Assembly (NCBI GenBank): GCA_001599915.1 | Contig: BCIG01000010.1 | Location: forward strand, 434,001 to 498,000 | Direction of reading: 5' to 3' | DNA length: 64,000 bases | Origin: Symbiotaphrina buchneri | Lineage: Eukaryota; Ascomycota; Symbiotaphrinales; Symbiotaphrinaceae | Part shown: piece by piece, positions 1,031-34,594 of the stretch | Layout of the letters: every line of letters starts with the position of its first letter | Numbering within the stretch: the stretch's first letter is position 1 | Position numbers and translations under genes: made by a program | The notes under the pieces: model-generated | What the model was told of the DNA's origin: nothing | The model's database searches: none | What the model saw: the letters and a program-made list of their open reading frames with translations, nothing else

Positions 1031-2111
1031 GATAATTCACAGTTTATTGGAAATTATCACAGAGAACCATGCAAGCATCAAATGCACAGTTACATCTACG
1101 AGGATACGAACGAGGATAGAGGTCTATCTACGACCTGCTTGTTAATGCCGTCCGACGGCCCTTGCGGTCGATCTCCGCCACGAATGCGGGAGGCGGCGGC
1201 GTTGTCCAGTGAGCTTCCAGGCATTATTCAGTCCTGATTGGCCCCTCCTATCTGCAGTACAACGTATCTCAAGTGTGGCCCTGCGGCCTAACATACTTCG
1301 TACCAAGGGTGCCAAAATACACACCGTGCACCTTATCTGCCGTACCACATCCCAAGGCTCTCCAGGAACGGCAACTTCTCTGCCGACAATGACAAATCAC
1401 TGACGGAGGTGGCCTAGACCTTCAGCCGCTCCTGCTGGGCACCGATGGATACTTGTGTATTATATTTTACCCAGCTATCAGAGCATTGTACTGCCTAGGA
1501 TTACGGATGGATATTCGTACTGTATCTCGACTTTCTCGACCCCATTTACTGTTGTTATCGATTAGCTGCGTATACGAAGGTCACGGCCCGGACAGTGCAC
1601 ACTGGCCGAGGGTCCTACAGTTAGCCGCCGAGCTAGCCCTCAGTTAAGGAGGCCCGTTGAAAGTCTAAGCGTAGGCGAATGCGTTCTCAGTCCCCCACTC
1701 TTGGCGGATCTGCTATCAACACACACTAAGCAAGTGGATAGGTCCCACTTCGTGAGCGAGGCCACCACTCTCCAACCGGAGGTGTACAAGATCTGGGGCA
1801 ACAAGGCAAGGCTGGAACAAGAGCCATACCGGTGCTTCTAGCCGTTCAACGGAAGGTCCCAAGACTATTCCATTCTTCGCAGAAGCTTGTGTACCCTAGC
1901 GTCATAGCAGATTGTTACCAGGGCCCATTTCTATCACGTACGAAAATGGAGGGGTTTGGGCCGTCGGAGTCGCGCCGGGGCAGGGCTCTCCACCATTGTC
2001 TCTTGTCAAATAACACAAGACAACTCTTTTCCACACGATCTCTCAATCCATTCGATCTCTTTGATCGTGTCCTGCGTTACTATTCCCTTTCGTTAGACCT
2101 GAGACATCAAG
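1031..2111. promoter_or_regulatory. Divergent hxnS/hxnT promoter with GATA boxes
   Basis: This 1.08 kb region separates the two divergent ATGs. It holds nine matches to HGATAR, the site of the nitrogen regulator AreA, counted on both strands, with GATA/TATC cores near 1031, 1055, 1125, 1249, 1334, 1476, 1556, 1714 and 1932. It also carries one copy of the 11-mer CCCCACTCTTG. Nitrogen-repressed, nicotinate-induced control is known for hxn genes in A. nidulans. That these particular sites work is inference. Confidence 0.6.
1693..1703 (+). promoter_or_regulatory. Candidate HxnR site (copy A)
   Basis: Exact CCCCACTCTTG, 409 bp upstream of the hxnT ATG and 663 bp upstream of the hxnS ATG. Identical 11-mers occur in three other intergenic regions of the cluster. 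Confidence 0.55.
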
Positions 2112-3490
2112 ATGGCTGTGACTGCTGCAGGCAAGCCGCTCGCGGATACCGCGCTCTTCAAACCCCTGAAGCTGGGCAACCTGAACCTCGCACATCGTGT
2201 TGCCTTAGCTCCCCTGACACGTATGCGACACAAGAAAAATGAAGAAGGCATCAACCTGGCATATGAACTGAACGTCGAGTACTACCAACAACGGGCGTCT
2301 CAGGGCGGATTCTTGTTGACGGAGGCCACCGATATTTCCCGCTATGTAAGTCCTCCATATGCGTAAGTCCGAGGGCGCAATTGACCAGGACACAGGCCAG
2401 CGGTTACCCTGGAGTGCCAGGCATCTACTCTCCTGCACAAATCCAAGCATGGAAGAAGGTTACCGACGCTGTCCATGCCAAGGGCGGCTACTTGTTCTGC
2501 CAAATTTGGCACGTTGGACGTGCAGCCACCCCCGGCTTGCTCGGTGGCAGGCAGACAATCAGCTCCAGTGATATCCCAATTTCTGGAGCTGCTTTGGACG
2601 GAACAAACTATGCGGATGCACCTCCGAGGCCAATGACCGTGGAGGAGATCCACGAGACCACCAAAGATTTTGCCCAGGCGGCCAAAAATGCCGTCGAGGC
2701 CGGCTTTGATGGTGTAGAGATTCACGGTATGTTTCCTTGCATCCTGTCAGGTGGAATGTAACTGATTAATCTCGATAGCCGCCAATGGATACCTGCTCGA
2801 ACAATTCCTGCATGACAATGTCAACAAGCGGACTGATCAGTACGGAGGATCCGTCGAGAACCGCTGCCGCTTCCCTCTAGAGGTGCTCAAGGCTGTCACC
2901 GAAGCCATTGGTGCCGAGAAAGTTGGCATCCGGTTGTCACCTTACAACTATTTCCAGGACACCAAAGACAGCAACCCTAATGCGCACTGGGCATACCTCT
3001 GCCAGCAACTGGTCGACCTTCCTCAAGAGAACCGGCCAGTCTACGTGCATATGTGAGTGCATATTGTCCTAAGCCAATGTTGAGCTCTGCTCATTCTTAC
3101 AGGGTTGAGCCCCGTTTCGATGAGGTTTTGGATGAGCAAGCCAAGTTGGACGCCCTCTCTGCTTACACCAACCAAGCGAACGCCCCGGAAGGTGATGCTT
3201 CAGCCACACCTAAAGGCGCTCCCAACACCCTCGTCCCTTTCCGCAGGATCGTGCAGAAGGGAGATATCAAGTTCTTTGCTGCTGGTGCCTTTAACCGCGA
3301 CAACGCTGCTGAGAAAGTCGAGTCCGGTGATGCGGACGTTATTGTTTTCGGACGATGGTTCATTGCGAATCCCGACCTGCCCCGGAGACTGAAGGAAGGT
3401 CTCCCTCTCAACCCCTACGACCGCTCAACCTTCTACGGCGCAGATCCCCCATCCAAGGGTTACATCGATTACCCGTTCTACAAGGAGTAA
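2112..3490 (+). CDS. hxnT: Old yellow enzyme HxnT (FMN ene-reductase)
   Basis: This is a 408-residue FMN flavoprotein of the old yellow enzyme/12-oxophytodienoate reductase family, with four exons (2112-2345, 2396-2726, 2779-3052, 3103-3490). It is a TIM barrel: the N-terminal PLTRMRH strand, the [11 protein letters not shown] substrate-anion motif (His and Asn near residues 188 and 191), the [10 protein letters not shown] segment with the likely proton-donor Tyr, and the C-terminal [11 protein letters not shown] phosphate-binding region are all present. In A. nidulans HxnT works in nicotinate breakdown, reducing a ring double bond of a hydroxylated pyridine. It is divergent from hxnS and followed by hxnR. 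Family membership is clear. The gene symbol rests on the neighbourhood. Confidence 0.9.
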
Positions 3491-4259
3491 ACTTGTCATA
3501 GAATTATGAGCATAGACTATGGAGTTTTGCTTTTCTTTTTGTGAAGGAAATTGGATTGATAGTCGATATAGGGGCCGGTTGTGTCTGAGACACACGACTC
3601 AATGAGCTGTGAATAGATGTGTTTAGTTTAGAAAGCATTTGTGTGACCAGTTCGCATTGCAAACCATTATTACAACACATGACGATGCCTCGATGCCCCA
3701 ACAGTGGAACAATGAGGGGACTTGCAGATAACAGCGGGTCCCAAGGCGTCGGGTATCACGCCAGAGCTCAAAAGGGTCCAAATCACTCGTCGTTCATTGG
3801 TTGGCCGGAGCGCCATTGCTGGCTTGCCAAGTATTGCAGGCCCCTGTCTAACTGGAACGGACCTGGGCGAGATGGACTGCAAGATGGGGCGGGCAGTTCC
3901 GGGCAAGAGTGCGAAAGTATCGCACAGGGTCGGGCATTTGCAGATTGCGATAAGTGATAAGGACGAACCGACGCCTGAGCGCCGCCCGCCCATGGCCCAG
4001 AACAGTATGGGACCGTCGCATTGCCGCACTTTCCCTTGCTGTACCGGGTCCCATTTCACCCCGAGGCTGTCGCCTGCTGAGCAAGCAATAAACTACGACA
4101 TCGCCCAGTGATACCCTCTCTGAAACCTTCATGTAGATTGCCTGTCTTTCTTTCAATTCACTCTGCCCCTGTGCATCCTATTTTGTCAGTGTCTCTTCGT
4201 GGCAAGCAGCAAGAGAAGCAGCGTCAATTTCCCGAGCATCCCCCAGCAAATTAGCCAAT
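3491..4259. other. hxnT-hxnR intergenic region
   Basis: hxnT 3' end and hxnR 5' region. I see no gene. Positions 3904-3911 carry CAAGAGTG, the reverse complement of the last 8 bases of the candidate HxnR site but lacking the CCCCAC core, so it is at best a partial site. Confidence 0.5.
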
Positions 4260-7200
4260 ATGAACGGCGGAGCTCGGTTGACTCGCCAAGCGGATGGTCG
4301 CTCAACCAGCAGCGACACGGCGACTCCTCCGAAGAAATACATCTGCAAACATGAAGGCTGTGGAAAGAGCTTCACCCGGTCAGAACATCTCCAACGCCAT
4401 GCTCTCAATCATGATGCTGGCAAGAACACCTGCCAGCGTTGCAGGGCGCATTTCAAGCGACCAGACCTGCTGGGTGAGTTGACCGGGCGACCCCCACCTT
4501 TGCATTCTATATGAATACTCACGGTCAAATGCAGATCGACATATGGCCCGACACAGGCAAAAGGATGAGGAGGCTGGCGGAGAGGGATTGGGCAAGCTAG
4601 AGACCAGAAAGAGACTGTGGAGGGATCCCGAAGGGAACATTGTCACCAAGAAGCCTGCGCTCAGCGGCGAGCCCGCCAGACAGGGCTCCACCCGCAGCGA
4701 CACCGGTGTAACCATCGAGCCGACTGGTCAAGATGGAGCACCAATCTCACCGCCAACGTCTGCACAGGAATCCAATTCGCAGGGTCAAGAAGAGAATCAA
4801 CAGATTCAAGATTTCATCGATGACCCCTGGATGTTGGCGCCCACCGACATAACCCCACTCTCGGGGCCAAATCATACTTTTCAGTCAGATAGATTACTTC
4901 TGGTCATCGCAGCCGCTCAACAATTCCAACAATCTTACAACGTCCAACAATGATATCCCGTACGATGATATCTTCAATCCTGATACCGGTGAGTAGATCT
5001 TTTTATTGCGTAGTCGCATTGTTGCTGATGTCGTTTTAGCCCACTCCTTCAATATGCCGTTTACCACGATGACCAACTACAATTGGTTGTTCAATGTGGA
5101 TCTGGCTTCATCGCAGCAGCACTACGATCCCAACCTCGACCCATTGGTGACGCCGAAGGACGTCTTACAATCTCACTTTGATCTCAATGTTCAGCTGCAC
5201 GAAGCTAAACCGGCGTCGACGGAAGTGAGCACGAGCGAAAGCCCGGTGTTCAGCGAGAGCATATCCTATACATCGCCAGCTCTATTCAACAATAGTCCGG
5301 AGGCGTATTCGATGCACTCCTCAATGGCGTCGCATTCTGGGCCTCTCAATGCGCAGCAACAGACCACACCGAGAACGCTTCCGACTCACTCCGCAAGTGT
5401 TGCCAGTTCAGACCAAGGTTCTGTTGGCCATGCTCGGAAACTCTCGAAGACCAGCATGGGTGCACCTACAATTCCAGCGTCGCAGTCAAATACGGATATG
5501 ATTCGGACTTTCTGCTCTCTGAAACGTTCGAGCAATCTGCCTATTGTCGACGAGGTCGCTCGTGCTCAAGTCCTGGATCTGATTACGGGTGCTCGGCCAG
5601 TGACGCCCGAGGGGAACACGATTACTCGCGATCATCCGCTCCTGTCGTTGTCTGCTCTGCAAAATTACTGCGACCTTTTCTTCTCCCGGTTCAATGTCTC
5701 ATATCCTCTCCTACACCAGGCGACATTCGAGCCATCTCATGTCGATACACTGCTGTTGACATCGGTGCTGTTGTTGGGTGCAACATATAGCGAGAAAGAT
5801 GCACATCAAATGGCTGTAAGTTCTCGTGATTCCTTATTCGTCATTGGTCGCTGACAGGAATAGGTCTGTATACATGATGTACTGCGAGCCCAGATTTTCT
5901 CAAACGCCTCATTCAGTGCGCAGCCAGAACTCTGGATGCTTCAGACAATCCTGCTAGTCGAGTGCTTCGGCAAGTCTCGTGCAGGCCAGAAGCAGCATGA
6001 CATGAGCCACTTATTCCATGGTCTTTTGATCAATCTTATCAGGAGAAGTGACTGTCAAACTGCACGCCCGCAAGGCTTGGATGAAGGAACCGGCGATCTG
6101 GAACATGATTGGCGGACATGGATCGAGAGCGAGCAGAAGAAACGGTATGTCTTGTCAAGGACCTATTGAACAGCAGCTCTAATTATCTGCAGGCTTGCTA
6201 TGTTGTGTTTCATGTGGGACGTGCAACATGCTGTGCTTTTCTGCCAGTCACTCTGCATGTCAGCATTTGAGCTACGGTCCACTCTTCCTTGCGACCCTTC
6301 TGTCTGGGAAGCCGAATCTGCAGAAGACTGGCAAAAGATGAGGAAGAAGGAGAGGCATCCTCCACTGTTCCTCACCATCCTCAAATCATACCTTACACCA
6401 GGCGGCAACCCTCCTCCTAGAACACTCAATGCTCTCTCGCGCGTCCTTGTTCTTCATGGTCTCATGTCTATTTCCTGGGACATGAAACGGCGGGACCAGA
6501 CATCCCTTGGCTTGTCTGGCAACGACCCTGTGGTCGGTAACTGGAAATCTCGCATGGCGCGGTCCTACGATGCCTGGAAAGCCGACTTTGACTCCTACTG
6601 CATGAACATGACGCTCGCAATATCAGACGACCAACGTCTGAAACAAGAGTTCGCGCGTTTCAGCACGGCCCAAATCGCCATCTACCACGCCGCCCACGTC
6701 ATTCTAGACGCCGAGTTCTTGGATCTGCAGATCTACGCCGGCGCACGGCACATCCTCGGTCGGCCTGTAGCACGCGCAGACTACGACCGCTCCAGACGAG
6801 TAGTCAAACGCTGGGCCAGCGACGACTCGATCGCCGCCGCGCGCGCAGGCTGGCACGCCGCGCACATCCTCCGCGACAGCATCATGAACCTCGACAACTT
6901 CGACGCCATCAATCTCTTCCACTACCCCTGGTGCCTGTACCTCGCGACCATCACCTGCTGGGCCTTCCACTACGCCTCGCCCAACCAATCCAAAGAATCC
7001 CTCTCGCAGACGCCCACCTACCAGAACGCCGCCAGCCCAGCGATGCAGCACATGTCGCTGCCCTCGCATGGCTCTCTCCAGGCCGCGGCGTCGTCACCTA
7101 CCGACCACCTCGGCGGCGACGAGATCGTCTGGGACGCTAAGGCCGAGATGAACGCCCTCGTCAGCGGCATGACGAGCACGATCCCGGAGAATCTGGGCAG

Positions 7201-7354
7201 ACTGGTCGGACGGTATCGGACCAGCGGCTTGACGGCGGTCATGGCCAAGCATCTCAGTACGGTGCGCTGGGCGGTCGTGCATGAGGGCATGAAGGTCCTG
7301 AGGGGCCTGGTGCCGGGGAGGTTGATTAATGAGTATGATAGTCTTTTGAGATAG
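4260..7354 (+). CDS. hxnR: Pathway-specific transcription factor HxnR (two C2H2 fingers plus fungal TF domain)
   Basis: A 944-residue nuclear regulator, expected to activate hxn genes in response to a nicotinate-derived inducer. My exons are 4260-4473, 4535-4832, 4885-4988, 5040-5815, 5864-6144 and 6193-7354. Two C2H2 fingers lie at residues 29-51 (C29, C34, H47, H51) and 58-78 (C58, C61, H74, H78). Their recognition helices are RSEHLQR and RPDLLDR. A Ser/Pro/Gln-rich stretch follows, then a fungal-specific transcription factor domain from about residue 405. The second intron (4833-4884) has a weak GTTGGC donor; it is required because the frame changes there, so that junction is the least certain. 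Such C2H2 plus fungal-domain architecture and the place beside hxnT match HxnR of A. nidulans. Confidence 0.88.
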
Positions 7355-8307
7355 ATGGATTGGGTCGGGTTTGCTGGGAAATTTGGGCGCTTTTTTGGGG
7401 GTTGGATTGGGCATAGGTGCTGTTTGGATTTGGTTCGGGCGTGTTGGCATATTCATTGTGGGATTGAGGTGAGCGTTTGGTTGTTGATTTTGATTATATG
7501 GATCCCGCAATCTCGCGACGGAGGGCCGCCATTGCTATATTGCTGCATATATGTATATTTAGACATGTAGCTGAATACCTATAGGTAACCGGCAACGAGA
7601 GCCAGTGCTATTAAGGATGAACAGTGTCACTGATCGTATGGAGCTTTTCGTGCGCGAGTGAGGGTCTCATCATAACCTCGTCCATGAACGGTAGACGCTG
7701 TGTGCAGCCGGATTGCGGCGCGGCGGAGATGCGTCTCGGAGGTTCAACGCTCGGTGGCCGCTTCGGCTTCCGTAATACATACCCCCCACTCTTGTGATTG
7801 GAAAGTTCACATGCACGGCGCGGTAGGAAGTACGACGTGTCTTACGAAGTATGTTCGACGAATTCTATATCACCCTCCTCCTTATGTCTCTCTTCGTAAG
7901 AAGGCCTGCTTCATTTGACTCTTCATCACCTCTTCCCGAATATAAGAGGTTCCATCCTCGCCATTCCCAAATACATGAAATGCTATGGGCAATTCTAACC
8001 GCAAGAGTCATCTTTGCCGAGGACATACCGGCACCATTCTGCGGGATGACGTCGATTTGATGATGCGAAGGGATTTTTCTGTGTCAACGTCTGTATGCAG
8101 CAGAACGTCTGGGGAAATTTGCATCTCCTGTGATTCCATTTCTTCATTCAGTGAAAAGGGAATTTAATTTGACTCATGCTGCTCCATCTGAACTGCAAAC
8201 CTTTCTTTCTAATCTTCTTATAGACGATCTATCTATCAAATAGATTTCTTTCGCTCCATCTTCTCCTTCACCACAAGTTCAACGAGACGCCATAGACACA
8301 AGGAACC
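7355..8307. promoter_or_regulatory. Region upstream of the FAD dehydrogenase gene
   Basis: I see no gene in this stretch. It has one exact copy of CCCCACTCTTG and two adjacent HGATAR matches (cores 8230-8233 and 8234-8237) close to the next gene, so it looks like an hxn-type promoter. The 60 bp before the coding frame are strongly pyrimidine-rich. Confidence 0.5.
7794..7804 (+). promoter_or_regulatory. Candidate HxnR site (copy B)
   Basis: Exact CCCCACTCTTG, 504 bp upstream of the first ATG of the FAD dehydrogenase gene. It is 440 bp past the hxnR stop, so it is unlikely to serve hxnR. Confidence 0.55.
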
Positions 8308-9959
8308 ATGCAACGCATCATCGACACCCTCAGTTCCACCTCCCTTACTTCCTCCTCTATTCCTCCTCTACTCCCTTATACGACCTCATCGTAATCGGCT
8401 ACGGCGCGGCCGGGGCCAGCGCTGCCCTCCAAGCCGCGCAACTCGGCGCTAAAGTGCTGATTATCGAAAAGCACTCGCGCGGGGGAGGCAACAGTTTCGT
8501 GTCGTCGGCGAACATGACGATGCCGACGGACTTCGACAGCCAAGAGCGCCGGCTGGGGGATAAGTTTGTGGAGTACCTCGAGGAGGTGGCGCAGGGTACG
8601 ACTAGCAAGGAGGTCATTAGGGCGTTTGTGGATGGTCTGTATGACCTCCCGGCCTGGCTGCGCGGGCTGGGCGCGGAGTGGGAGGAGGCGCAGTATGAGA
8701 AGATGTCAGTGCTGCTTTCCCTGATTCTCTTTCCTGGAACTGTTTAGGTCGTTCTTGGGTGGTGGCCATTGACAGAGAATGACAGGTTCACATACTACAT
8801 CCCGACCCTGACATTCCCCAACCTGGCTTCCGCAGAACCCCTGAAAAGCAAAGACACCCTCAAAGTCTATCACGTCAAACAGACATCTCTCTGCCCTGCT
8901 CCAACAGCCGGCCGTCGTATCTGGGAGCTGCTCGACTCCCACCTCACCGCCCACCCCAACGTCACGATCCGCACCTCCGCACACATCTCCCGCATTGACC
9001 GACGAATATGCTCGAACGGCACCCTGGGACCTGTAACGGGCGTCACCCTGAACGATGGCACGCACATCTCCTCCCGCGCCGTCGTCATCGCCTGCGGCGG
9101 GTTCGAGAACCACGTGCAGCTGAAACGCGACCTCCTCGGACCGCGTCACATCGGTCTGCTCGGTTCTCCCGGCAATGAAGGCGACGGCATCACTTTGTCC
9201 GAAAAGGTCGGCGCGCAGCTATGGCACCTGACCTCCGAAGCCTCCGTGCTTGGCTTCCTGCCGCCGGGGGCAACATGCGGCTTTGCGCTCGCGCTGCGGC
9301 ATCCGGGCTTCATCTTCGTCAACGGCAGGGGGCAGCGCTTCATCAACGAGGCCAAGCTCGAGAGCCACCGCGGGCACAGCGACACGGCGATCTTGGACCA
9401 CGAGAGCGGGCAGTACGCGCAGGACCCCATCTGGCTGCTCATGGACGAGAAGAATATCATCCACTCGCCGCGGCCCGTGTTGGACATCTTCTCGTACCAG
9501 ATCGTCCGCGACGGGTACGAGTGGAGCGAGCGCTCGGAGCGCGAAATCGAGAAGGGCTGGGTCCTCAAAGCAGACTCGCTCGCGGCCCTCGCGCAGAAGA
9601 CGAAGCTTCCTGAAGATGCTCTTCGCGAGACGCTGGAGCAGTGGAATGCCCTGTCGCCCTCGACCGGCCACCCGGACCCCCGCGGTCGCACCCCCGAGTC
9701 GACGGCACCCATTCACCCGCCTTACTACGCTATGCGCCTGACGCCGCTGCTGTACAACACGCAGGGTGGCCCGCAGCGGGACGAGCATGCGCGCGTGCTG
9801 GACCCAGATGGAGAGGTTATTGCGGGTTTGTTTGGGGCGGGCGAGTGTGGCAGCGTCTGGGGCCATGCGTATCAGAGCAGCACGAATTTTGCGGAGGCGA
9901 TGGTGTTTGGAAGGATTGCGGGGAGGGTTGCCGTGCAGGGGGTCAAGAAGGAGGAGTAA
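8308..9959 (+). CDS. FAD-dependent dehydrogenase, fumarate reductase/tricarballylate dehydrogenase type
   Basis: A flavoprotein of the FAD-binding-2 family (succinate dehydrogenase/fumarate reductase flavoprotein, tricarballylate dehydrogenase, 3-ketosteroid dehydrogenase group). About 499 residues are coherent from 8379, with one intron at 8705-8785. The dinucleotide fold VIGYGAAGASAA is followed by a RGGGNSFVS motif like that of tricarballylate dehydrogenases. The C-terminal FGAGECGSVWG segment closes the FAD site. The 5' end is odd: the ATG at 8308 is in a different frame from 8379 onward and meets a TAA near 8392, and no AG lies between the ATG and the frame that would permit splicing. 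Either an upstream exon exists, or the CT-rich leader carries a one-base indel (real or a sequence error). It sits inside the hxn cluster and has its own candidate HxnR site. I know of no hxn gene of this family. A role oxidising or reducing a ring-opened acid intermediate is inference. Confidence 0.75.
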
Positions 9960-10164
9960 GACCTTACTGTCATAGAGAAAAGGATTGGGCTTTTTGGCCT
10001 GGTGTGAAGCATGGACAGTGAAGACTGCCATTTGGAGCCAATGATTGGGACAATCTGTAGTCTAGGTATGCATCTAATGATATATAACGACCTCTTCACG
10101 GTCAAAAGAAAACAGTCATACAACAACATCCCCACCCCTAAAACATCTCCCCCTTCCCACTAAC

Positions 10165-12314
10165 CTACGCCTTCAAAAACCCCCCAAAATAGCCCTCGAG
10201 CCACCTCACGCCCTCATCTCCCCCATCTTTCGCATCAAACCTCTCGACCGCACCCACATACCCATCAGGCCTCACAACCACAACCTTAACCTCGCCCTCG
10301 CCCACATCACCAACCCACTTCTCGCTCGCCTTCAAGCCCTTCGTATCCATCCCGGGCACATCATCCAAATAAAACGTCCACGCCGCCTTCTTCGCCAACC
10401 ACTCCGGCAAGTCCGCGATCTCCACGCTGGCCTTAGCCTGCGTCGTCACAGTCGCTATGCTCGCCAGCTCGCTCGCGGACGTGTACCGCTCGGGCCGGGA
10501 GAAGTCGTCTTGTTTCGCGAAGGGGCGTGGGCGCGATGCGTAGGAGGTTGCGAGAGCGGCGCCGAGCCGGCCGAGGAGGGAGGGAGAGGAGGGGGAGGGT
10601 ACGAAGGCGCTGCTGAGGGCGGAGAGGAATGGGGCTGAGGTTTGCACGTGTGACACGAAGAGGAAGAGCCGGAATTGGCTGAGGTGTGGGATGTCCAGCT
10701 GCAGGTCGACGGGGTTGTGGTCGATGTACCGCGTGGCTTTGGCGGGGGTGAGGAGTTTGCCGGGGACGCAGTCGCCGCTCTTCGCTGTCGTCGAGGAGGT
10801 GGAGGATGAGGAGGATGGGCTGGGGGAGAGGTTGAGGACGTTGGCATCGTACTCAGCGCCGACGCCGGAGATGAAGCGCGTGTTTTTGGCGAAGTTCTCT
10901 GCGAGGGCAACGGCGTCGCCGGCGCTGAAGGCCGCTGCGTGCTCGTGGTCGAAGTCGATCAGGTCCTGCGCGATCTTGCGGCGCTCGGCCTCGTAGGTGG
11001 GGAGAAGGGTTGGGAGGGCGAGTCCCCGCACGGCGAAATTGAGTTTCCAGCAGAGGTTCCAGCTGTCGTGCATGGATACGTTCATCCCCTGTCCGGCTTT
11101 GGGAGAGTGCGTGTGTGCGGCGTCGCCGGTGATGAATACGTGCGAGGAGGAGTCGATGAAGCGGTTTGCGACGCGCTGGCCGATTTGGTAGAGCCCGAAC
11201 CATTCTGGTGAGGGATGTTAGGTACGGTATGTGGGGATGGGAGGGGAGAGTGGGAGGGTAAGACGGACCAACGGTGTTCCAGTTCAGAGTGTAGGGCTTG
11301 AAGATCTCTCTCGCGCGCTTGGTGACGAACTCCTGGTTCGCCACGGCCTTGGTGACCTTCTCGTTCTCATCCGTCGAGATCAGCTCGATATACAGGCGGG
11401 TCATATTCCGCTCGCGGGGGATACATAGCACGGTTCCAAACTGCTCCGAATGCACGATCGTCTTGCTCCACAGGTCCGGGAAGTCCGTCTCGACCTCGCC
11501 GTCCAGCACGCCCCAGATGACATCCTTGGACTCCCCCACCATCTCCGTGTCGGGCATGCACCGCCGCACTTTGCTGTGGGCGCCGTCGCAGCCCACTAGG
11601 TATTGTGTCTCGATGTGCCGCGTCGTGTTGGCGAGTGTGTCCTCGTAGGAGACTGTGAGGGGGCCCGTGATGTCGCTTTTGGGGTTGTAGTCGGAGAAGG
11701 CGGCGCTGCGGGTTACTTCTTTGCCGTGCTCGCGCAGGTCGTCGAGGAAGACGTCTTCGATCATGCCTTGGTGGCCCAGCAGCATGTAAGGTTCTAGCAC
11801 GTCGATGATGTCGGGGGAGGGGTAGTGGCATTCGCGGCCCGTCCGGCGAAGCGGTGTTGACGAGTCGGAATTCTGCCCAGTCGTTAGCCCTATGTTCTTC
11901 CCTCAAGTTGGAGGGAAGGCATACCCAGAATGTCATGTCGTAGAACTTGACGCCCATTCTCAGCAGCGGATCCAAGACCCGCATCTGCTTGAACGTCTCT
12001 AGTGTCTTAGGCTGGATCCCATCTGCCCGCCCTGTGCAAGTCTTGTCGCTCCGATCATCCAAGATATTGATCTTCACACCGAACCGTGCCAAATTGGCTC
12101 TGCTGCCGTTAGCACTCGCCTTCCCCTATATTGCCCAGCACACTCACCCCAGCATCAAGCCCGCCGGTCCCGCGCCCACAACGACCACATCATGGACCTC
12201 GCCCTTCGACTGCGCATGCACATCTGCAGCCCCATTGGCGCTCGAGGCCGGGTATCCATCGTTGACAAGACCAGGCGACATTTCCGGCGACCGTTCAGCT
12301 CTGGAGCGCTTCAT
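10165..12314 (-). CDS. hxnV: FAD-dependent aromatic monooxygenase HxnV (phenol 2-monooxygenase type)
   Basis: A 661-residue flavin monooxygenase of the phenol hydroxylase family, four exons (12148-12314, 11925-12099, 11269-11872, 10165-11204 on the minus strand). Domains in order: a 40-residue leader, the FAD fold VVVGAGPAG (G47-G52), the NADPH/FAD DG motif YLVGCDGAHSKVRR, the ribityl-binding GDAAHTHSPKAGQGMN motif, and a C-terminal thioredoxin-like domain typical of phenol hydroxylases that ends in the PDGYVG loop. A Ser/Thr-only insert of about 15 residues precedes the C-terminal domain. In the A. nidulans pathway HxnV hydroxylates a dihydroxypyridine intermediate. It is divergent from hxnN and shares its promoter. 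Confidence 0.88.
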
Positions 12315-13024
12315 GCTCTTATTCTCTCGGCACCCGAGGACACGGCGACGGGGGGGTAATTGTTATAGGGGGCAGGCACAGCTCTGTTAGCTAGCTATGG
12401 CGACTGAGAGGTTGGCCTGTGCATGCATGGTCCAAGGGGCCCCGACACGGCAAATTTAACCAGACGGCCGGTTGTGGGCGTGACGTCCGACGGCGGCGCG
12501 TCTGAGGGGTGGTTCGAGAACGGTACGATCAGCTACGATGGGGTTTGTGGTTCAGTGGGGGTTGGCGGTACGAGTTACGATTAGAGAGGGTACGAGTATC
12601 TTAATCTACAGTGAGCGATAACAGATATCGCTAACGAGCTTTTAGTTAAAGGGATTAGTTAGAGAGGCCCTCACAATCTTTTCCCTGCCGGCAAGGCTGC
12701 GGATTGCCATCCCCACTCTTGTAGCTAATACGAATAAGGGTGGATCGTGTCGAGGATGGGAGGGACTGTCGAAGCTCCTCTACGCCTAGATTTCCTTCTA
12801 GCGGCCGAGCTAAGAATTACAGATGCTAGCAAAGTTCCGTGCGTGGCTGCAATGCCGAATGCCGTTTATCGATCGGCCTACCGTCGGCGAAGCTACCGCC
12901 GAGATTTGATAGGATAGTGTCATGCGACCAAGAAAATGAACAACACCAGAGATATTGTTGACCAGTGATTGATTATATCATTGAACAAAAAAGGCTTGCT
13001 GCTGGATAGGGATCTCAGGCGACG
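12315..13024. promoter_or_regulatory. Divergent hxnV/hxnN promoter
   Basis: Shared 710 bp region between divergent starts. It has HGATAR matches with GATA/TATC cores at 12617, 12867 and 12908, and one exact CCCCACTCTTG. I see no gene in it. Confidence 0.6.
12711..12721 (+). promoter_or_regulatory. Candidate HxnR site (copy C)
   Basis: Exact CCCCACTCTTG, 397 bp from the hxnV ATG and 304 bp from the hxnN ATG, placed to serve both. Confidence 0.58.
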
Positions 13025-15043
13025 ATGGGGGACCTGGGCGAGCAGGATGAGCTGCCTCAATGGCAGGTCAAAGTCGCCGAGAAACAGCGCATACGGTCTG
13101 AGCTCCTGAAGCCGTTTTTGTCGACCCGTGACGATGATGGCGCCGGGTTGTTGACGCCGACCTCATTGCTTCCGCCCGTACGCGCATCAAATCCGCCCGG
13201 TGTTTAGCAAGCGCTGATGTGTCTCAGGAAAGCAGATACGGCAACTACCTCGACAAATCGTGGATCGAGCCTCGAATTTCCAGAGAAATCACCGACGTCG
13301 ACGATATCGAAGCGCTGAGAGATAAGATTGCTTCTGGAGAATGGTCTGCGGAGGGCGTCATAGATGCATATTCTCGCAGGTGCGCATGTCTAGAACCAAT
13401 TTACAAGTAACGGTAGTTGACCTTTCAACAGGGCAGCAGCTGCGCATCGTGCTGTAAGTTGTATCCAGTAATTATATGAACAGAGCAGAAGCTGAGACAT
13501 CGCAGACCAACTGCCTGACGGAAATCTGCTTCAAAGACGCCTTGGAGCAAGCTCGAGAGCTGGACAGATACTTCGAAGAGCACAAGAGACCAATTGGACC
13601 GCTGCATGGGGTCCCAGTGACTCTCAAAGACCAATTCAACGTCAAGGGGTATGATACCACGCTGGGGTACGTGGGTCGAGCATTCAAGCCTGCGGAGGAA
13701 GACGCGGTTGTAGTAGCCATCTTGAAGAAACTGGGAGCGGTCATACTGGCAAAGTCGAACCTGCCGCAGAGTATCATGGTGTGTTACAGCTCACGATGCT
13801 TGGAATGTTGGCTCCGGCTAACGTCGGGACTATAGTGGTGCGAAACAGAGAATCCGCTATGGGGCCTCACTGTCAACCCACAAGATCCGGATTTCACCCC
13901 TGGAGGCTCGACAGGTGGTGAAGGAACACTTCTGAAATTGCACGCTTCGATCCTAGGATGGGGTACAGACATTGGAGGCAGTATCCGGATTCCATCTCAC
14001 ATGCTCGGTCTCTACAGTCTCAAACCCAGCGTACATACCTCCCCCCTCCACAGCATCTCAGTCCCCTAACATCAATTCCAGAGCACCCGCCTCCCCTACC
14101 AAGGCGTCCCCGTCTCGACCGAGGGCCAAGAACACGTCCCCTCCGTCATCGGGCCCATGGCACGCACTCTCTCCTCGCTCTCCCTGATCACCAAATCCGT
14201 CATCGACGCCGCGCCCTGGAGCCTCGATCCCAAATGCGTCCCGCTGCCCTGGCGGGAAGACGCCTACGCGGAAATGTCGTCGCGGCCGCTAGTCATCGGC
14301 CTGCTGCTCGACGACGGCGTCGTCAGAGTGCACCCGCCCATCGAGCGGACGATCCGCGAGCTCGCCGCCAAGCTGGAAGCGGCGGGCCATGAAATCGTCC
14401 TGTGGAATGCTGAGGGCCATAAGGAGTGCATCGCCATCATGGTATGGCCTCATCATCCATCCTTCACTTTATCATTCATAAACCCGCTAATTAACTTCTG
14501 TAGGACCAATATTACACCGCCGACGGCGGCGAAGATATCCGCCGCGACGTCCTCGCCGGCGGGGAGCCCTTCATCCCACACGTCGCCGCGCTGACATCCA
14601 AAGCGCCCGCCATCTCCGTGTACGAGTACTGGCAGCTCAACCGGCAAAAGCTCGACGCGCAGAAAGCCTATCTCGACAAATGGAACAGCATCCTATCCCC
14701 CAGAAGCGGACGCGCCGTCGACGTGCTGCTGACGCCAACGATGCCGCACCTGGCGGTCCCGCATCGCTGTTGCCGCTGGGTCGGGTACACGAAGGTGTGG
14801 AATTTCTTGGATTATAGCGCGGTCATGATCCCGGCTGGGAGGGTGAAGTTGGAGGTTGATGGGTTGGGGAAGAAGTATGAGGCAAGGAATGAGCTGGATG
14901 CCTGGAATTGGAGTGTTTGGGAGAAGTGGAAGGAGAGGATGGAGGGGTTCCCGGTGAATGTCCAGATTGTGGCGAGGAGGTTGGAGGAGGAGAGGGTGCT
15001 GGGTGCGGCGGAGGTGGTTGAAAGGGTTATTAAGGCGCGGTGA
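13025..15043 (+). CDS. hxnN: Amidase HxnN (amidase-signature, AmdS-like)
   Basis: A 564-residue amidase-signature hydrolase; fungal acetamidases have about 550. Seven exons: 13025-13177, 13228-13379, 13432-13453, 13506-13778, 13836-14030, 14082-14441, 14504-15043. The Ser-cisSer-Lys triad is visible: K192 in LAKSNLPQ, S225 in GGSTGG and S249 in TDIGGSIRIPS. The third exon is only 22 nt; it keeps phase and yields the family sequence AHRATNCLTEICF. In A. nidulans HxnN releases ammonia from alpha-hydroxyglutaramate, the final nitrogen-yielding step. Its neighbour hxnM makes that half-amide, so the pair forms an imide-to-diacid module. A generic acetamidase is the alternative reading. Confidence 0.9.
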
Positions 15044-15601
15044 TGGGGAGCGCAAGGTGGATGGAACTGTTGTAGAGTAGGTAGATAGGATAAGGACCAA
15101 ATGTTTGCTACCTCTTTTTCTTCGCTCTGCTTGGGAATTGAACAAGATAGACTTGTCCTAATAGTGCCCTGCAAACACTATTGTTGTCTTGTGGAAAACA
15201 ATCCTCCAAGTCTCCGAGCTCTCAAGCTCTCCAAACCCCCTTAACCTCAACCGGCTTAGCTCAGGGTCCAGCACTCATGCCTGCGGCGCGATAAGAAGCG
15301 GGCAACCAACCAATTGAAATGTTTATGTAAAGATCCCCACCTTTATCAGCGTCGCCCGACGCTTGGGCCGAGTTTGGCGGGGCTACGAGCATTTGTATGC
15401 GATACCGCCGTCGTCGTAGAGATAGCTGTCGCGGATAGTTAGCTTGCGGACGACACTTTTGACGTCGCTGTCGTTGTCTTCCTCTTCCAACCTCAATTGC
15501 TGTTGGGACTCGACAGAACACTGCAATTGAGCAACGCAGTTGCTTGCCCGGCCATCTACTTTACCGCTACACTCAACCACTCACCCTCCACCACCGCAAC
15601 A
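15044..15601. promoter_or_regulatory. hxnN-hxnM intergenic region
   Basis: I see no gene. It has several HGATAR matches (cores 15084, 15146, 15300, 15343 and 15421). It lacks an exact CCCCACTCTTG, but CCCCAC followed by CTTTAT at 15335-15346 keeps the core hexamer. Confidence 0.45.
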
Positions 15602-16616
15602 ATGGGCAAGAAGCGCGTGCTCGTCTCCTACGGGGTGGACATCGACGCCGTCGCAGGCTGGCTCGGCTCATACGGGGGCGAAGACAGCACCTCGGACATC
15701 TCACGAGGGATGTGGGCCGGCACAATCGGTACCCAACGGCTCCTCAAACTCTTCGCCAGGTACAACATCAAAGCGACATGGTTCATCCCAGGGCACTCCC
15801 TCGAAACCTTTCCGGAGGACTGCGCAGCGGTGCGGGACGCCGGGCACGAGATCGGGCTACACGGCTACTCGCACGAGAACCCGGCGGACATGAGCCTGGA
15901 GCAGCAGGCCGACGTGCTGGACAAGACGTACCGGCTGCTGACGGATTTCTGCGGCGGGAAGCCACCTCGGGGGAGCGTCGCGCCCTGGTGGGAGCAGAGC
16001 AAGGAGGGCGCAGAGTTGTTGCTCAAGTACGGCATTGAATATGACCACAGCATGAGCCATGAGGACTGCCAGTGCTACTGGCTGCGCACGGGCGATACGT
16101 GGACCAAGATCGATTACAGCAAGAAGGCCGACGAGTGGATGAAGCCGCTGGAGAAAGGGGTCGATACGGGCTTGGTGGAGATCCCCGGCAGCTGGTATAT
16201 TGATGATCTCCCGCCCATGATGTTCATCAAGAACTCGGCGAATAGCCATGGCTGGGTCAATCCGAGAGATGTCGAGGATATCTGGCGCGATCATTTCGAT
16301 TACTTTTATCGCGAGTACGATGAGTTTGTCTTTCCGATGACGATCCATCCGGATGTCTCGGGGAGACCGCATGTTTTGCTTATGCATGAGAGGTACGACA
16401 TGTTCCACCCCCCTGGCCGCTATTGGATAAGGGGCTGAGGGGCTTTTTGGCTAACAATTGATATCTTACAGAATCATCGAGCACATCAACAAGCACGAAG
16501 GCGTCGAGTGGGTGACGATGGGCGAGATGTGTGACGACTTCAAGAGCAAGAACACCCCTCCCCCCGGCGCGCTGATGCCCGCGGCGCCAGGAGCCATCCT
16601 CAAGGAGAAGAAATAG
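15602..16616 (+). CDS. hxnM: Cyclic imide hydrolase HxnM (polysaccharide deacetylase fold)
   Basis: A 311-residue metal-dependent hydrolase with the NodB/polysaccharide deacetylase fold; exons 15602-16392 and 16472-16616. It shows the PgdA/imidase subgroup signature [19 protein letters not shown] near the N-terminus, with the metal Asp at 13 or 15, then ATWFIPGHS and [10 protein letters not shown] carrying the metal histidines, and VAPWWE. It has no signal peptide, which argues against a cell-wall role. In A. nidulans HxnM opens the ring of 3-hydroxypiperidine-2,6-dione to alpha-hydroxyglutaramate, the substrate of HxnN next door. Many databases would label it only polysaccharide deacetylase family. 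Confidence 0.9.
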
Positions 16617-17979
16617 AGGAAGAAATGCAGGGGCGCAGAGGGATGTGGATAGGTCATTTAGAGGTCGGATGAGATGATGACGATGTTGATGATGATGGCT
16701 GTATATAGAAGATGCCTTCTACTCGTATTTGTTGTCTCTGTGTTGCTGTAACACTTTGTTTTGCTTCGAGATGTAGCTCCCAGCCTGCCTGCAGAGCCCA
16801 GCGGATATACAGCTCTGGAACCAAGCGACACGTTCTGCTCTACGTTCGGTACATTCGCGCGCGAGATCCAGTGCATTGCATACCTTAAGGTACCTGACCT
16901 ACCACAATAATGCTTCCCAAAACTACCAGGCAATTAATTCTGTTACTCTCCCGTACTCACTATTAGTACGCTGTACATTAAAAGTTGATTACATCCAACT
17001 AAGGAATTAATCCTCCTCTTCATCCTTCCTCTTTCGAAGCTGCTGGACACTTCAGTCCAGTCCACTCCTCTTCCCCCCCACTCTTGCCGCACCCACTGCA
17101 TCCACTTGCGCATCCACTCCTCAACAACCCCTATCCGCACGCTACAGTCACGCTAAACTAGCTCTCCGAACCTCAGCAGACTCCGCCGTTCTTCTAGCCT
17201 TGTAGCTCGTAGGTAGGAGTAGGGGCAGCTCTTATCTTATCGCTCTATGCTTCCTCCATTTTCTGAGGGAAGGGAGAGCACTGCGGCTCGGGCGTCGGGG
17301 CCGACGGCGCCGTCGGAGGGATGGGGTGCACCCTCCCACTCAGTAATGTCTGTACGACTGAGGTGGAGGCAACAATAATGTACCTATGTGGATTCTGAAT
17401 AATGGGTGCGGATTTACTAGATTAGTTTTATGCACACGGAAAAGTGGTGCATGAAGGAGCTGTTGTGCGATGCTGGTGTGACCTTTTTAGGGACTATTTT
17501 AGGGATTTGGGGTGGAGGTACAAAGTCAACTAGACTCAGTCGATAGATAAGGTTTTTTGGTGGGTAAGGTAGCACAGCGATAAGAGATGCTGTATCACGA
17601 GGAGGGGTTGTCGCAACCACAACTTTCCAATTGGATCAGTTCTAAAGCATAGAGTTCGTAGAGTCTCAGACCTTCCTGATTCTCACGTTGACCGTCATTC
17701 TCCAGATCAATTCGTCAAGTGAGGCATCATTGTCACGCGCACACATCTGCCAGTGATTTCCACGGCCGATTAACCCCGCTACCTCCGTCGGAGAGATCCA
17801 TAGCTGCAAGAGTCGTCGTCAACAACCACGGCAGGACACTTCCTTTTTGAGGAGCTGGTCCCAAGCAGATCATCTCTGAGAAGCCTTGTGTGAAGGGTTC
17901 AGAGAGTGCTGCTGTTGCTTGCTGCTCTGCGCGGAACGGACGCGATAGCGGAATAAGTACTGGGGGAAGGCGAAGAGAC
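16617..17979. other. hxnM-hxnX intergenic region
   Basis: This 1.36 kb stretch has no gene I can support. It contains one exact CCCCACTCTTG and, near 16881, a short GGTACC-centred palindromic motif of the kind repeated elsewhere in the window. The part next to 17980 is presumably the hxnX promoter. Confidence 0.45.
17076..17086 (+). promoter_or_regulatory. Candidate HxnR site (copy D)
   Basis: Exact CCCCACTCTTG, 894 bp upstream of the hxnX ATG and 460 bp downstream of the hxnM stop. It is the most distant of the four copies from its presumed target. Confidence 0.5.
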
Positions 17980-19768
17980 ATGGCGCCCCCACCGGTGGTG
18001 CTGCAGGAAAAGATCGAGAGGGATGAGAATAGCAAGCTCAAGGTCAGTGAATGACTGCATATATACAGTGCTTGGGTGCGCGGTGAGGGCGGTTGGTGAA
18101 GATGTCTTTTATCTGCGGGGGAGGTAGGGATGTACGCGTTGTGAGGGGTCGGTGGTGTTGTTTGATGCGCTGTGATTTAATCCTTTTTGGGACCTGAACT
18201 GCGTTATGAGCACGCTTCCAATGTGGGACAAAACCACGTGCTGACTTGGTGCTCAGATTGTAATAGTCGGAGCAGGTCTGGGAGGTTTAGGCGCCGCTGT
18301 GGCATGTCTGCTAGCAGGGCACGACGTCGAAGTGCTCGAGTCAGCCAGCGAAATCGGCGAGGTACAAACTCATCTCTCCGATCATCTCATATCAGCAGCC
18401 TAACACATCTCCACCAGGTCGGCGCCGGCATCCAATGCCTCCCCAACAGCAGCCGCGTGCTCCTATCCTGGGGCATGGGCGACGCGCTCTCAAAATACGC
18501 AACGAGCCCGAAGCAATGCAACATGCTGGGCTGGAAAGGCAACCTGCTGACGAGCATGAACTTCCACGACGCGACGGCCGAGTACGGCACCCCGTTCTGG
18601 GACTTCCACCGCGCGAACCTGCATAAATGCCTGCTGGACCGCGCGGTCGAGCTGGGCGCGACCCTGAGGGTGAACAGCCGTGTCGAGGACGTGCAGGTGG
18701 CCGAGGATGGCTTGACGGCCACGGTCGTGCTGAGTGATGGACGCCGCCATACGGCGGATCTGGTGGTTGGTGCGGATGGCATTAATAGTCGGTGTAGAGA
18801 GATCATGTTGGGCAGGAAAGAGGAGCCGACTCAGACGGGGGATCTGGCGTATAGGTTGCTATTGAGCACGAAGGAGATGATGAAGGATCCGGAGCTGAGA
18901 GGGTTCGTTGAGGACCCGCAGGTGAACTACTGGATGGGTCCGGATGCACATGCAGGTAAGTCAACAGGCTCTTCCAGCACTTCTTCCTCCTCCACTTGGA
19001 CAAAACGAGGCTAACAACCCCTCGTGCACAGTCAACTACGTCCTCCGCGGCGGCGAGCTCTTCAACATGGTCCTTCTCGTACCCGACGACATGCCCGCAG
19101 GCGCCAGCACGCTCGCCGGCAACGTCGAAGAAATGCGGGCACTCTTCCACGACTGGGACCCACGGATCCCCAAGCTCCTCGCCCTCTGCGAGAGCGTGTA
19201 CAAATGGCGGCTCTGCATCCGGCTCGGCATGGACGCCTGGTCGCACCCGAGCGGGGCCTTCACGATGCTCGGCGACGCCGTGCACGCCACGCTCCCCTAC
19301 CTCGCCAGCGGCGCGGGGATGAGTCTCGAGGACGCTTCCGTGCTGGGTCTTTGCCTCGGCCGCCTGCGCGGCAAGTCCGCCGCGGAGAAATCCCATGCCC
19401 TGGCCGTCTATGAGGCGTGCCGCACGGAGCGCACGCGCCGTGTTGTTGAGCGCGGGAATGCACAGCAGTACCTGTATCATTTCCATGATGGCGAGGAGCA
19501 GCGCGCAAGAGATGAGAAGATGTGTGCTTTTGGCGAGGCGGAGAGGCTGGCGCGTGAGAAGGGAGAGATTGGAGATGCGGCGGTTAATGCGCAGAGGAAA
19601 GTGGGCTTGCCGCAGGGACTGAAGCCCGGTGATGATCCACTGGCGTGGAGGCGCTGGGGCGTCGGCGCGTGGTTGCTGAGTTATCAGTGTGATAAGGATG
19701 TGGAGGAGAGGTGGGACCAGGTGGGCAAGCTCGCTCAGGGGGAGGCGGAGGTTCAGGCGAGGTTGTGA
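17980..19768 (+). CDS. hxnX: FAD-dependent monooxygenase HxnX (6-hydroxynicotinate 3-monooxygenase type)
   Basis: A 480-residue flavin monooxygenase of the salicylate hydroxylase class, exons 17980-18042, 18257-18361, 18418-18955 and 19032-19768. The first intron is unusually long for this locus (214 bp). The FAD motif IVIVGAGLGGLGAA starts at residue 22, the DG motif is LVVGADGINSRCR, and the GD motif is TMLGDAVHATLPYLASGAGM. In A. nidulans HxnX oxidatively decarboxylates 6-hydroxynicotinate to 2,5-dihydroxypyridine, right after HxnS. It is the last cluster member on this side; the next genes are housekeeping. Confidence 0.88.
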
Positions 19769-32229: not shown

Positions 32230-33613
32230 TAGACTGGAGTCGAGCGGTGGTATGTCATGAGGTGAGTGGGTGAGTACTTATGGAGATTGAGAATGGCGAA
32301 GATGAGAGCAGCACTGAGGAGCAGAAGAAGAAGAACAAGGACAAGAAGAAGAAGGAAAAGGAGAAGGAAAAGGACAGTAGTCGTCATTTGCGTATTAGGA
32401 GGTCCCGTCGTTCTATGCCTTGAGGAGGGAGCTTTATTTCGGGCTTGTACGCTACATGACTGGTGTTTTTACCTACCTTACCTTTCCTCCCCGCTTGCTT
32501 TATATGAAGTACTCCAGTCCCAATGCCGATGGTGATTGAATTATGATGGTGTAGGATGATGACTGATGATGGATCGCTCCACGCAGAATAAGGCAGGGGA
32601 TGTAGATGACAGGATCACGCAATGCAGAGCCAGTGCCTTGGAGTAAGGTACAGTAAGGTACACTTACTTCTTAATTTGTGGAGTAGTAACCAGGGGAAGG
32701 GGTACGTGGTACTGTACGGAGTTACTGACTTGTACGAAGTATCTTACCGTAGTCGGCGTTCTAGAACCGAGGCCAACCCCGCACCGGCACCTGACAGGAG
32801 AGTGGAGGCGACGGCCTGGCGGGCTGGTGCGCCGCTTCAAGTTACGGCGTGTAGGTGTACACTGTAGAAATGAATACATACCTCAGGGTACATATCCTGC
32901 AAGTCACTTGGGTTCATCTCCCCCGCCTGCCAAGTTAGGCAAAAGTAGATCGATGTACCCACCTTGCTTGCCCTGCATGAAATCCAAAGTCGTCCGTCGC
33001 TTTTTGCCTCGGCCTCGCTACCTAGGCTGTGCCCAGTTCTCCCGCCTGGATCAGGTACCTAAGGTAATTCCGTACTTCCCATCTCCAATCCGCTCCTCGC
33101 TCATTCACTCACTCACTCACTCACTCACTCACCCGCTCTATAAGGTAAACAATCCTCCTTCTCTCCATCCTTCATCCTCCTCTATCCGACATCTCATCTC
33201 CCCTGACCCCTGAGTTACACACTGCCCTGCCGCGTTCCTGGGCCAAGCCAGGCATCCTTCCATTGCACCCCACCTGCGGTATAAATCAGACTACCCATAG
33301 TTCGCGTGCGCGGGGGACCCACTTTGTCCGATATATTCTTCGCTGCCTTCCGTCCCGTCCTCTCGCTCACTCTTCACAGAACAGCAGTCAGCCTCCAGTG
33401 AGCTACCTATCTGCATAATAACGGTTCTCGAGCAGGGCTCGCATCCGCTTCGTTCCATGTGGAATTAACGGCCATGCTCCTGCCCCACCGAGAGCCTATA
33501 GAACGCCCTCGTTGGCCCACCATCCACCTCCGCAACAGCGTCAAAACGTGACACACCCTCCTCCCCGAGGACAGCAGTGCCCATCGGGTGGTCTATAGCT
33601 TTTACACCTCGCC
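32230..33613. other. Intergenic region upstream of the cyclin gene
   Basis: 1.4 kb with no supported gene. It holds a purine-rich GAA/AAG tract (32321-32375), GGTAC-type motifs around 32645-32750 and a CACT microsatellite. CT-rich sequence before the cyclin ATG suggests a long 5' UTR. Confidence 0.45.
33106..33132. repeat. (CACT)n microsatellite
   Basis: Almost seven perfect CACT units in 27 bp, visible directly, about 480 bp before the cyclin ATG. Confidence 0.9.
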
Positions 33614-34594
33614 ATGTCTCCAGGGCTACCGGTGCTGACGAGCCAGGACTGTCCAGGGACACCTCCCAAGCAGCCTTCCGCTCCAGATCCGGCCGCGGAC
33701 CCCGGAGTTCAACCGCAACATGCGGTGACGGACGATACTGGAGCGATACCAGATGATGCGGACATCGACATCTTCGCTCTTTCCCCTCTTGCGGCCTTGC
33801 GGATGCTCAGCCGCAGCATTGACGCTCTGGTTCGGATGACGGGCGACGTGCCGCCGACCCCTCCTCTCAGTCATCCCAGTACTCCGAACCTGAAAGCATT
33901 GCAAGCGGAAAAGGAAGAAATCTCCCGAAGCCACCTGGGACAGAGTGCTGATGGACCGCGACCGCGCACCCCGTCCTCATCAAGCTCCGGAGAACATGTT
34001 GATAGCGTTCCCCTTCGAAAGACTCCGTTGGGCAGCCCAGAGTCGACACGCGATCAGTGCATCACCGTGATCGGCGCTAACGCGGAGCCAGTGACCGTCC
34101 AGCATGGGGCCATTACGCGCAAATTCTACTCCAAGAAACCACCACCCATTTCGCTGGAGGATTATCTGCTTCGACTACATCTCTATTGCCCAATGTCGAC
34201 AGCAGTCTACTTGGCCGCTAGCCTCTATCTCCACCGACTGGCGGTGCAGGAAAGGCTGATCCCGGTAACGGCCAGGAACGCGCATCGGCTCCTCCTTGCC
34301 AGTCTACGTGTGGGGATGAAAGCGTTGGAGGATTTCAGTTACCCTCACCGACGCTTTGCCAAAGTAGGAGGCGTTACCGAGCAAGAGTTGGGTCGGTTGG
34401 AGATAAGCTTTTGCTTCTTGTGTAGCTTCGAGCTGAAGGTGGATGCCTCTCTGCTCCATGAGCAGGCCATCTCGCTGCGTAACGCAGCACGCACATCTAC
34501 CGGACCGTTGGATTTTCAACCAAAGCTACCTGCCTTGAAGGAGAAAGCGACGGGCGGGACAATGTCAGTTACTGCCGTTGCGGCGGGCGCTTGA
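33614..34594 (+). CDS. PHO80-type cyclin (PHO85 cyclin family)
   Basis: A 326-residue single-exon cyclin. The first 130 residues are Pro/Ser-rich and disordered, with several SP/TP sites. The cyclin box follows: FYSKKPPPISLEDYLLRLHLYC, then AVYLAASLYLHRL, then the RLLLASLRVGMKALEDFSYPHRRFAKVGG core that marks the PHO80/PCL group, then the helix with NRLE-like ELGRLEISFCFLCSFEL. Such cyclins bind PHO85 kinase and control phosphate, glycogen or polarity responses. Which PCL subgroup it belongs to cannot be told here. Confidence 0.9.
   Translation: MSPGLPVLTSQDCPGTPPKQPSAPDPAADPGVQPQHAVTDDTGAIPDDADIDIFALSPLAALRMLSRSIDALVRMTGDVPPTPPLSHPSTPNLKALQAEKEEISRSHLGQSADGPRPRTPSSSSSGEHVDSVPLRKTPLGSPESTRDQCITVIGANAEPVTVQHGAITRKFYSKKPPPISLEDYLLRLHLYCPMSTAVYLAASLYLHRLAVQERLIPVTARNAHRLLLASLRVGMKALEDFSYPHRRFAKVGGVTEQELGRLEISFCFLCSFELKVDASLLHEQAISLRNAARTSTGPLDFQPKLPALKEKATGGTMSVTAVAAGA

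Follow-up and report, generated by a model that had tools for sequence, protein, structure and literature searches.

A repeated 11-base element in the hxn cluster of Symbiotaphrina buchneri as a putative operator for the two-finger activator HxnR

Introduction

In Aspergillus nidulans, induction of the hxn genes requires the regulator HxnR (PMC8478523). The same paper, published in 2021, gives 5'GHGGGG as the HxnR site obtained from a web predictor, relaxed to 5'GNGGDG (section 2.1 and legend of figure 4), and states that HxnR sites lack experimental determination. For the Pezizomycotina, it describes the hxnS-hxnT gene pair as mostly conserved and the hxnV-hxnN pair as conserved across classes (PMC8478523). 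Here, we analyzed a 64,000-nucleotide stretch of DNA from the ascomycete Symbiotaphrina buchneri (contig BCIG01000010.1, positions 434,001 to 498,000; hereafter the window) that carries an hxn cluster, a set of genes for nicotinate (vitamin B3) breakdown, with both of these pairs. Our subject is an 11-base element, CCCCACTCTTG, which recurs in the intergenic regions of the cluster, with one copy at each of the two pairs. On the other strand the element reads CAAGA-GTGGGG, and we consider it to be probably an operator for HxnR, a two-finger C2H2 activator of nicotinate genes.

An initial annotation of this DNA had named the element a candidate HxnR operator and had known of no published HxnR site. 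The latter does not hold, since the GHGGGG prediction is in print (PMC8478523), and for the same reason neither the core of the element nor the finger logic behind it is new. The GTGGGG half was thus predicted before, whereas the CAAGA half appears to be new. Neither CCCCAC, GTGGGG, CACTCTTG nor CAAGAGTG occurs in the main text of PMC8478523, PMC5746545 or PMC9304392, figures and supplements lying outside this search. Among the literature matches listed for CCCCACTCTTG or its 10-base parts there was no hxn paper by title, and those on the HxnR binding site or on hxnS and nicotinate (from 2018) included no later study of HxnR binding. A query combining ADR1, CCCCAC and zinc finger matched no paper; the matches to C2H2, CCCCAC and Aspergillus were, by title, not concerned with hxn.

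Results

A search of both strands of the window revealed four exact copies of CCCCACTCTTG, all of them on the plus strand and all intergenic within the hxn cluster, three upstream of hxn genes and one upstream of a gene for a FAD_binding_2 protein. The first copy (1693-1703) lies in the divergent hxnS/hxnT promoter, 663 base pairs (bp) from the hxnS ATG at 1030 and about 409 bp from the hxnT ATG at 2112. The second (7784-7794) is located between hxnR and the FAD_binding_2 gene. The third (12711-12721) occupies the divergent hxnV/hxnN promoter, 397 bp from the hxnV ATG at 12314 and 304 bp from the hxnN ATG at 13025, and the fourth (17076-17086) is found about 0.9 kilobases (kb) 5' of hxnX, whose ATG is at 17980. 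No exact copy was detected on either strand of the window outside the cluster. The number of copies, their shared orientation and their absence from the rest of the window are therefore as the initial annotation had described them, and three of its four coordinates are correct; the second copy had been placed at 7794-7804, 10 bases too high. Its chance expectation of 0.03 for an 11-mer was reproduced with 100 shuffles. When up to one mismatch is allowed, the window contains six sites against 1.46 expected. The two additional sites are CCCCACTCTCG at 4853-4863 on the plus strand, within hxnR and of uncertain exon or intron status, and a site at 34382-34392 on the minus strand, outside the cluster.

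The number of copies does not decide the matter by itself: when the window was simulated 200 times with a third-order Markov model, 56 of the simulated windows contained some complex 11-mer at least four times. The six upstream regions of the cluster make up 8.5% of the window yet contain all four copies (0.085^4 = 5e-5). CCCCAC occurs at 23 sites, four of which continue with the same five bases, TCTTG, whereas the expected number of such foursomes is 1.4e-5; among the five-mers preceding these 23 sites, none was seen more than once. Of the 2098 hexamers that occur no more than 30 times, six show a shared five-base extension in at least four copies, and the other five belong, by our reading, to a tandem repeat or to a palindromic repeat family. 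The weight of the evidence comes from the combination of confinement to upstream regions, a core that matches the published prediction and the shared five-base extension. GTGGGG, one form of the published GHGGGG, is present in all four copies as well as in the variants at hxnM and in the hxnR intron described below, and is found six times in the six promoters against 2.0 expected.

Outside the element, the four copies have nothing in common except an extra C in three of them; their flanks are thus unrelated, so a duplicated segment around the copies was rejected.

The hxnR gene (4260-7354, plus strand) encodes two C2H2 fingers and a Fungal_trans domain. Finger 1 (4338-4412, plus strand; amino acids 27-51, helix RSEHLQR) was assigned from the translation and a Pfam zf-C2H2 match at residues 27-51. 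Finger 2 (4431-4554, plus strand; amino acids 58-78, helix RPDLLDR) is split by intron 1 (4474-4534) and was recognized by its cysteines and histidines in a C-x2-C ... H-x3-H pattern, the Pfam model having matched finger 1 only. Intron 1 is a model based on splice signals and reading frame, as all introns and starts were modelled without complementary DNA. Numbered from the ATG at 4260, the translated exons contain R40, H43 and R46 in finger 1 and R67, L70 and R73 in finger 2, exactly the residues on which the initial annotation had built its argument. The usual C2H2 code applied to these fingers gives GNGGGG, and we find this logic sound: the same helix residues are present in the yeast factor ADR1. 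Between the fingers and the Fungal_trans domain, the hxnR reading frame changes around 4853-4912, which could reflect a lesion, a misassembly or an intron of unusual type; an intron with a canonical donor accounting for the change was looked for in this interval and not found.

Beyond the exact copies, which cover four of the six upstream regions, a looser form is present in five of the six and in hxnR intron 1. The hxnM promoter, with the sequence CCCCACCTTTA, contains the variant CCCCACCTTT at 15335-15344 on the plus strand, and the identical variant, followed by G, is located at 4492-4501 on the plus strand inside hxnR intron 1. The initial annotation had credited hxnM with CCCCAC only; the core is indeed present at 15335, and the claim was too modest in view of the exact match to the hxnR intron. 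It had also stated that hxnR lacks the core, which is true of the upstream region (3491-4259) and not of the gene, where CCCCAC is found at 4492 in intron 1 and at 4853. The upstream region itself is without the element and holds only GAGGGG (3714-3719, plus strand), which matches the published GHGGGG and not the 11-mer, and the partial CAAGAGTG (3904-3911, plus strand), in which the extension is followed by GTG but not by the GGG. This 8-mer is the only occurrence of CAAGAGTG in the window apart from those within the four 11-mers.

A single pattern, CCCCACYYTT, covers the exact copies and both variants. It has six matches in the window (the four CCCCACTCTTG copies, 15335 and 4492), all on the plus strand and all inside the cluster, against a mean of 0.525 and a maximum of 3 in 200 third-order simulations. 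It is present in all six upstream regions if that of hxnR is extended to intron 1; among 3000 second-order simulated sets of six regions, 2863 had it in none, 133 in one and 4 in two regions, and never in more. These figures are flattering because the pattern was derived from these very sites. The related pattern CCCCACNNTT has seven matches in the window, one of them outside the cluster.

At hxnM, positions 15335-15348 combine the HxnR-like element CCCCACCTTTATCA with an overlapping AreA-type site, TGATAA on the minus strand at 15343. The six promoters together contain 28 AreA sites (HGATAR) against 12.8 expected, an expectation not adjusted for promoter base composition, and this count fits nitrogen control.

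The hxn names used here were assigned by reading Pfam domains of open reading frame pieces against the domain table of PMC8478523. Fer2 with Fer2_2 identifies HxnS, inside whose gene the window begins, Oxidored_FMN HxnT, zf-C2H2 with Fungal_trans HxnR, FAD_binding_3 with Phe_hydrox_dim HxnV, Amidase HxnN and Polysacc_deac_1 HxnM. The HxnX call is weaker, since its FAD_binding_3 match of 20.2 bits lies below the 22-bit cut-off and its NCBIfam matches, of the 3-hydroxybenzoate 6-monooxygenase-like type, are likewise below cut-off. Neither hxnP, hxnY, hxnZ nor hxnW was recognized among the 20 open reading frame pieces scanned with Pfam (10 of the 12 open reading frames of at least 220 amino acids beyond 20 kb).

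Within the cluster, approximately at 8308-9959 on the plus strand, lies the FAD_binding_2 gene preceded by the second copy. Its product resembles flavocytochrome c and urocanate reductase: the best PDB match is a urocanate reductase (E value 3.6e-23) and the best NCBIfam match, below cut-off, flavocytochrome c. Translation from the ATG at 8308 ends at a stop after 28 codons, and the gene model is therefore provisional as regards its start or an intron. The gene is not among the additional hxn-cluster genes given in section 2.5 of PMC8478523. Given the CCCCACTCTTG copy in front of it, control by HxnR is predicted, and the gene is a candidate new member of the HxnR regulon that the cluster may have recruited. 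Section 2.5 of the same paper cautions against presuming regulation for such extra cluster genes: nfsA of A. nidulans lies outside the clusters and is not regulated by HxnR, and its relatives occur in some hxn clusters (PMC8478523). The 11-mer flags the FAD_binding_2 gene as one extra gene worth testing.

The window also harbors a family of palindromic TACCTTAAGGTACCTTA-type words, which recur at 16881, 25000, 28090, 35126, 35404, 35459, 49166 and 60755 and reach up to 10 exact 11-mer matches (both strands counted, overlaps included). A short tandem repeat of TCAC is located at 33105-33132.

Discussion

The best reading of CCCCACTCTTG is that of an operator for HxnR. The initial annotation was right to propose it, given the finger residues, although it missed the printed prediction and did not consider CreA. 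According to the mechanism that we propose, HxnR would bind the CAAGA and GTGGGG block CAAGAGTGGGG and thereby activate the nicotinate genes. Finger 1 (RSEHLQR) would read GGG, and finger 2 (RPDLLDR) would read GTG, with Leu70 opposite the T. CAAGA adjoins the finger 2 triplet at its 5' end, where the polypeptide exits finger 2. The chain would therefore point toward CAAGA, and either HxnR itself, through the segment that follows finger 2, or a partner protein could contact these five bases. At hxnM the looser CCCCACYYTT would take this role, and its copy in intron 1 may do so for hxnR.

Several observations weigh against this interpretation. The fingers account for only six of the eleven bases. 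The linker between them, DAGKNT, falls one residue short of the common TGEKP type, so that a strict side-by-side arrangement of the two triplets is an assumption. By sequence, ADR1 (2adr, 1.6e-05) is not the solved structure closest to the HxnR fingers, TFIIIA scoring 9e-14. The element lies at varying distances from the ATG (about 0.3 to 0.9 kb) and is missing from the hxnR upstream region, and the YYTT part of the looser pattern was picked post hoc, when the sites were already known. The published motifs are at best mildly enriched: GHGGGG has 96 matches in the window, with 13 in the six promoters against 8.2 expected, and GNGGDG has 477, with 47 against 40.5 expected, which is hardly an enrichment. 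Finally, GTGGGG also fits the consensus of CreA, as discussed below.

In its full form, our proposal is that the two-finger HxnR reads an 11-base operator by means of the chain following finger 2 or an obligate partner on CAAGA, that this makes the site specific to the cluster, that HxnR regulates its own gene from the intron and that the FAD_binding_2 gene has been recruited. We offer this fuller version tentatively and regard it as less likely than not. If it is true, the 11-base site could not be mimicked by CreA or another general C2H2 factor that reads the same GTGGGG.

A serious alternative is a composite site in which HxnR occupies GTGGGG and a second factor CAAGA(G), the cluster being controlled by this specific combination. 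It is serious because the two parts of the element show some independent variation: the copies at hxnM and in the hxnR intron retain the core and change the extension, and the hxnR upstream region holds CAAGAGTG without the GGG. The extension also lies outside both finger triplets. However, the constant spacing in all four copies fits a single protein equally well, and CAAGAGTG at hxnR is a lone 8-mer that may be due to chance. A further point against the composite site is that we know of no factor that reads CAAGA(G), no search having been made for one. On balance, we regard a composite site as unlikely.

CreA, the carbon catabolite repressor, offers a different explanation, according to which the elements are CreA sites and the cluster is repressed on good carbon sources. 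GTGGGG indeed fits both the established CreA consensus SYGGRG (PMC8844935) and the Mig1 consensus SYGGGG (PMC3897899). Yet the six promoters show no enrichment of SYGGRG (24 matches against 26.7 expected), and CreA binding would leave the TCTTG extension unexplained. Moreover, studies of hxn in A. nidulans, including PMC8478523, used glucose minimal media and nevertheless recorded induction of the hxn genes, and for this reason CreA is seemingly not dominant there. The main text of PMC8844935 contains neither "hxn" nor "nicotin" and thus provides no test either way. We consider CreA an improbable explanation of the element. Least probable of all is that chance or repeat descent spread the word by duplication, or that it is common genome-wide, without any regulatory role: the simulated windows with a complex 11-mer in at least four copies and the second, palindromic repeat family in the same window speak for this, but the copies share no flanks beyond the extra C, are restricted within the window to the hxn cluster, hold the predicted core and have a single orientation.

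With respect to the A. nidulans prediction, the S. buchneri element shares the hxn promoters, the finger-code argument and the core, GTGGGG being among the three words that GHGGGG covers (PMC8478523). The published motif comprises six bases and derives from a predictor, whereas the element described here has eleven bases, four exact copies and a five-base 5' extension. It also goes beyond the prediction in that hxnR intron 1 holds a looser copy and that an exact copy precedes a gene which section 2.5 of PMC8478523 does not list. With 96 matches in 64 kb, the printed GHGGGG is so loose that it cannot separate regulated from unregulated genes. The 11-base element, confined to the cluster within the window, provides a sharply defined probe for binding assays and a query with which unlinked members of the regulon can be sought. 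CreA and Mig1 are C2H2 factors like HxnR (PMC8844935), but their consensus is without the five-base extension found in CCCCACTCTTG, and CreA is a repressor of carbon catabolism.

The element raises the question of how a protein with only two fingers would recognize eleven bases. In ADR1, a segment preceding the fingers takes part in DNA contact. ADR1 and HxnR both have two C2H2 fingers, and the recognition helices, RQEHLKR and RRDLLIR in ADR1 (PDB 2adr) against RSEHLQR and RPDLLDR in HxnR, are identical at helix positions -1, 2, 3 and 6 (R/E/H/R and R/D/L/R). HxnR thus carries the ADR1-type R/H/R and R/L/R at positions -1, 3 and 6. The consensus listed for ADR1 is TTGGRG, with T at the second base (PMC3897899). 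By this precedent T would be favored at the second base of the HxnR core, and T is what all four copies and both variants show. GTGGGG matches TTGGRG at five of six positions, the ADR1 site starting with T and the HxnR core with G (PMC3897899). The linker between the fingers differs between the two proteins, and the likeness of HxnR to ADR1 resides in the helix residues.

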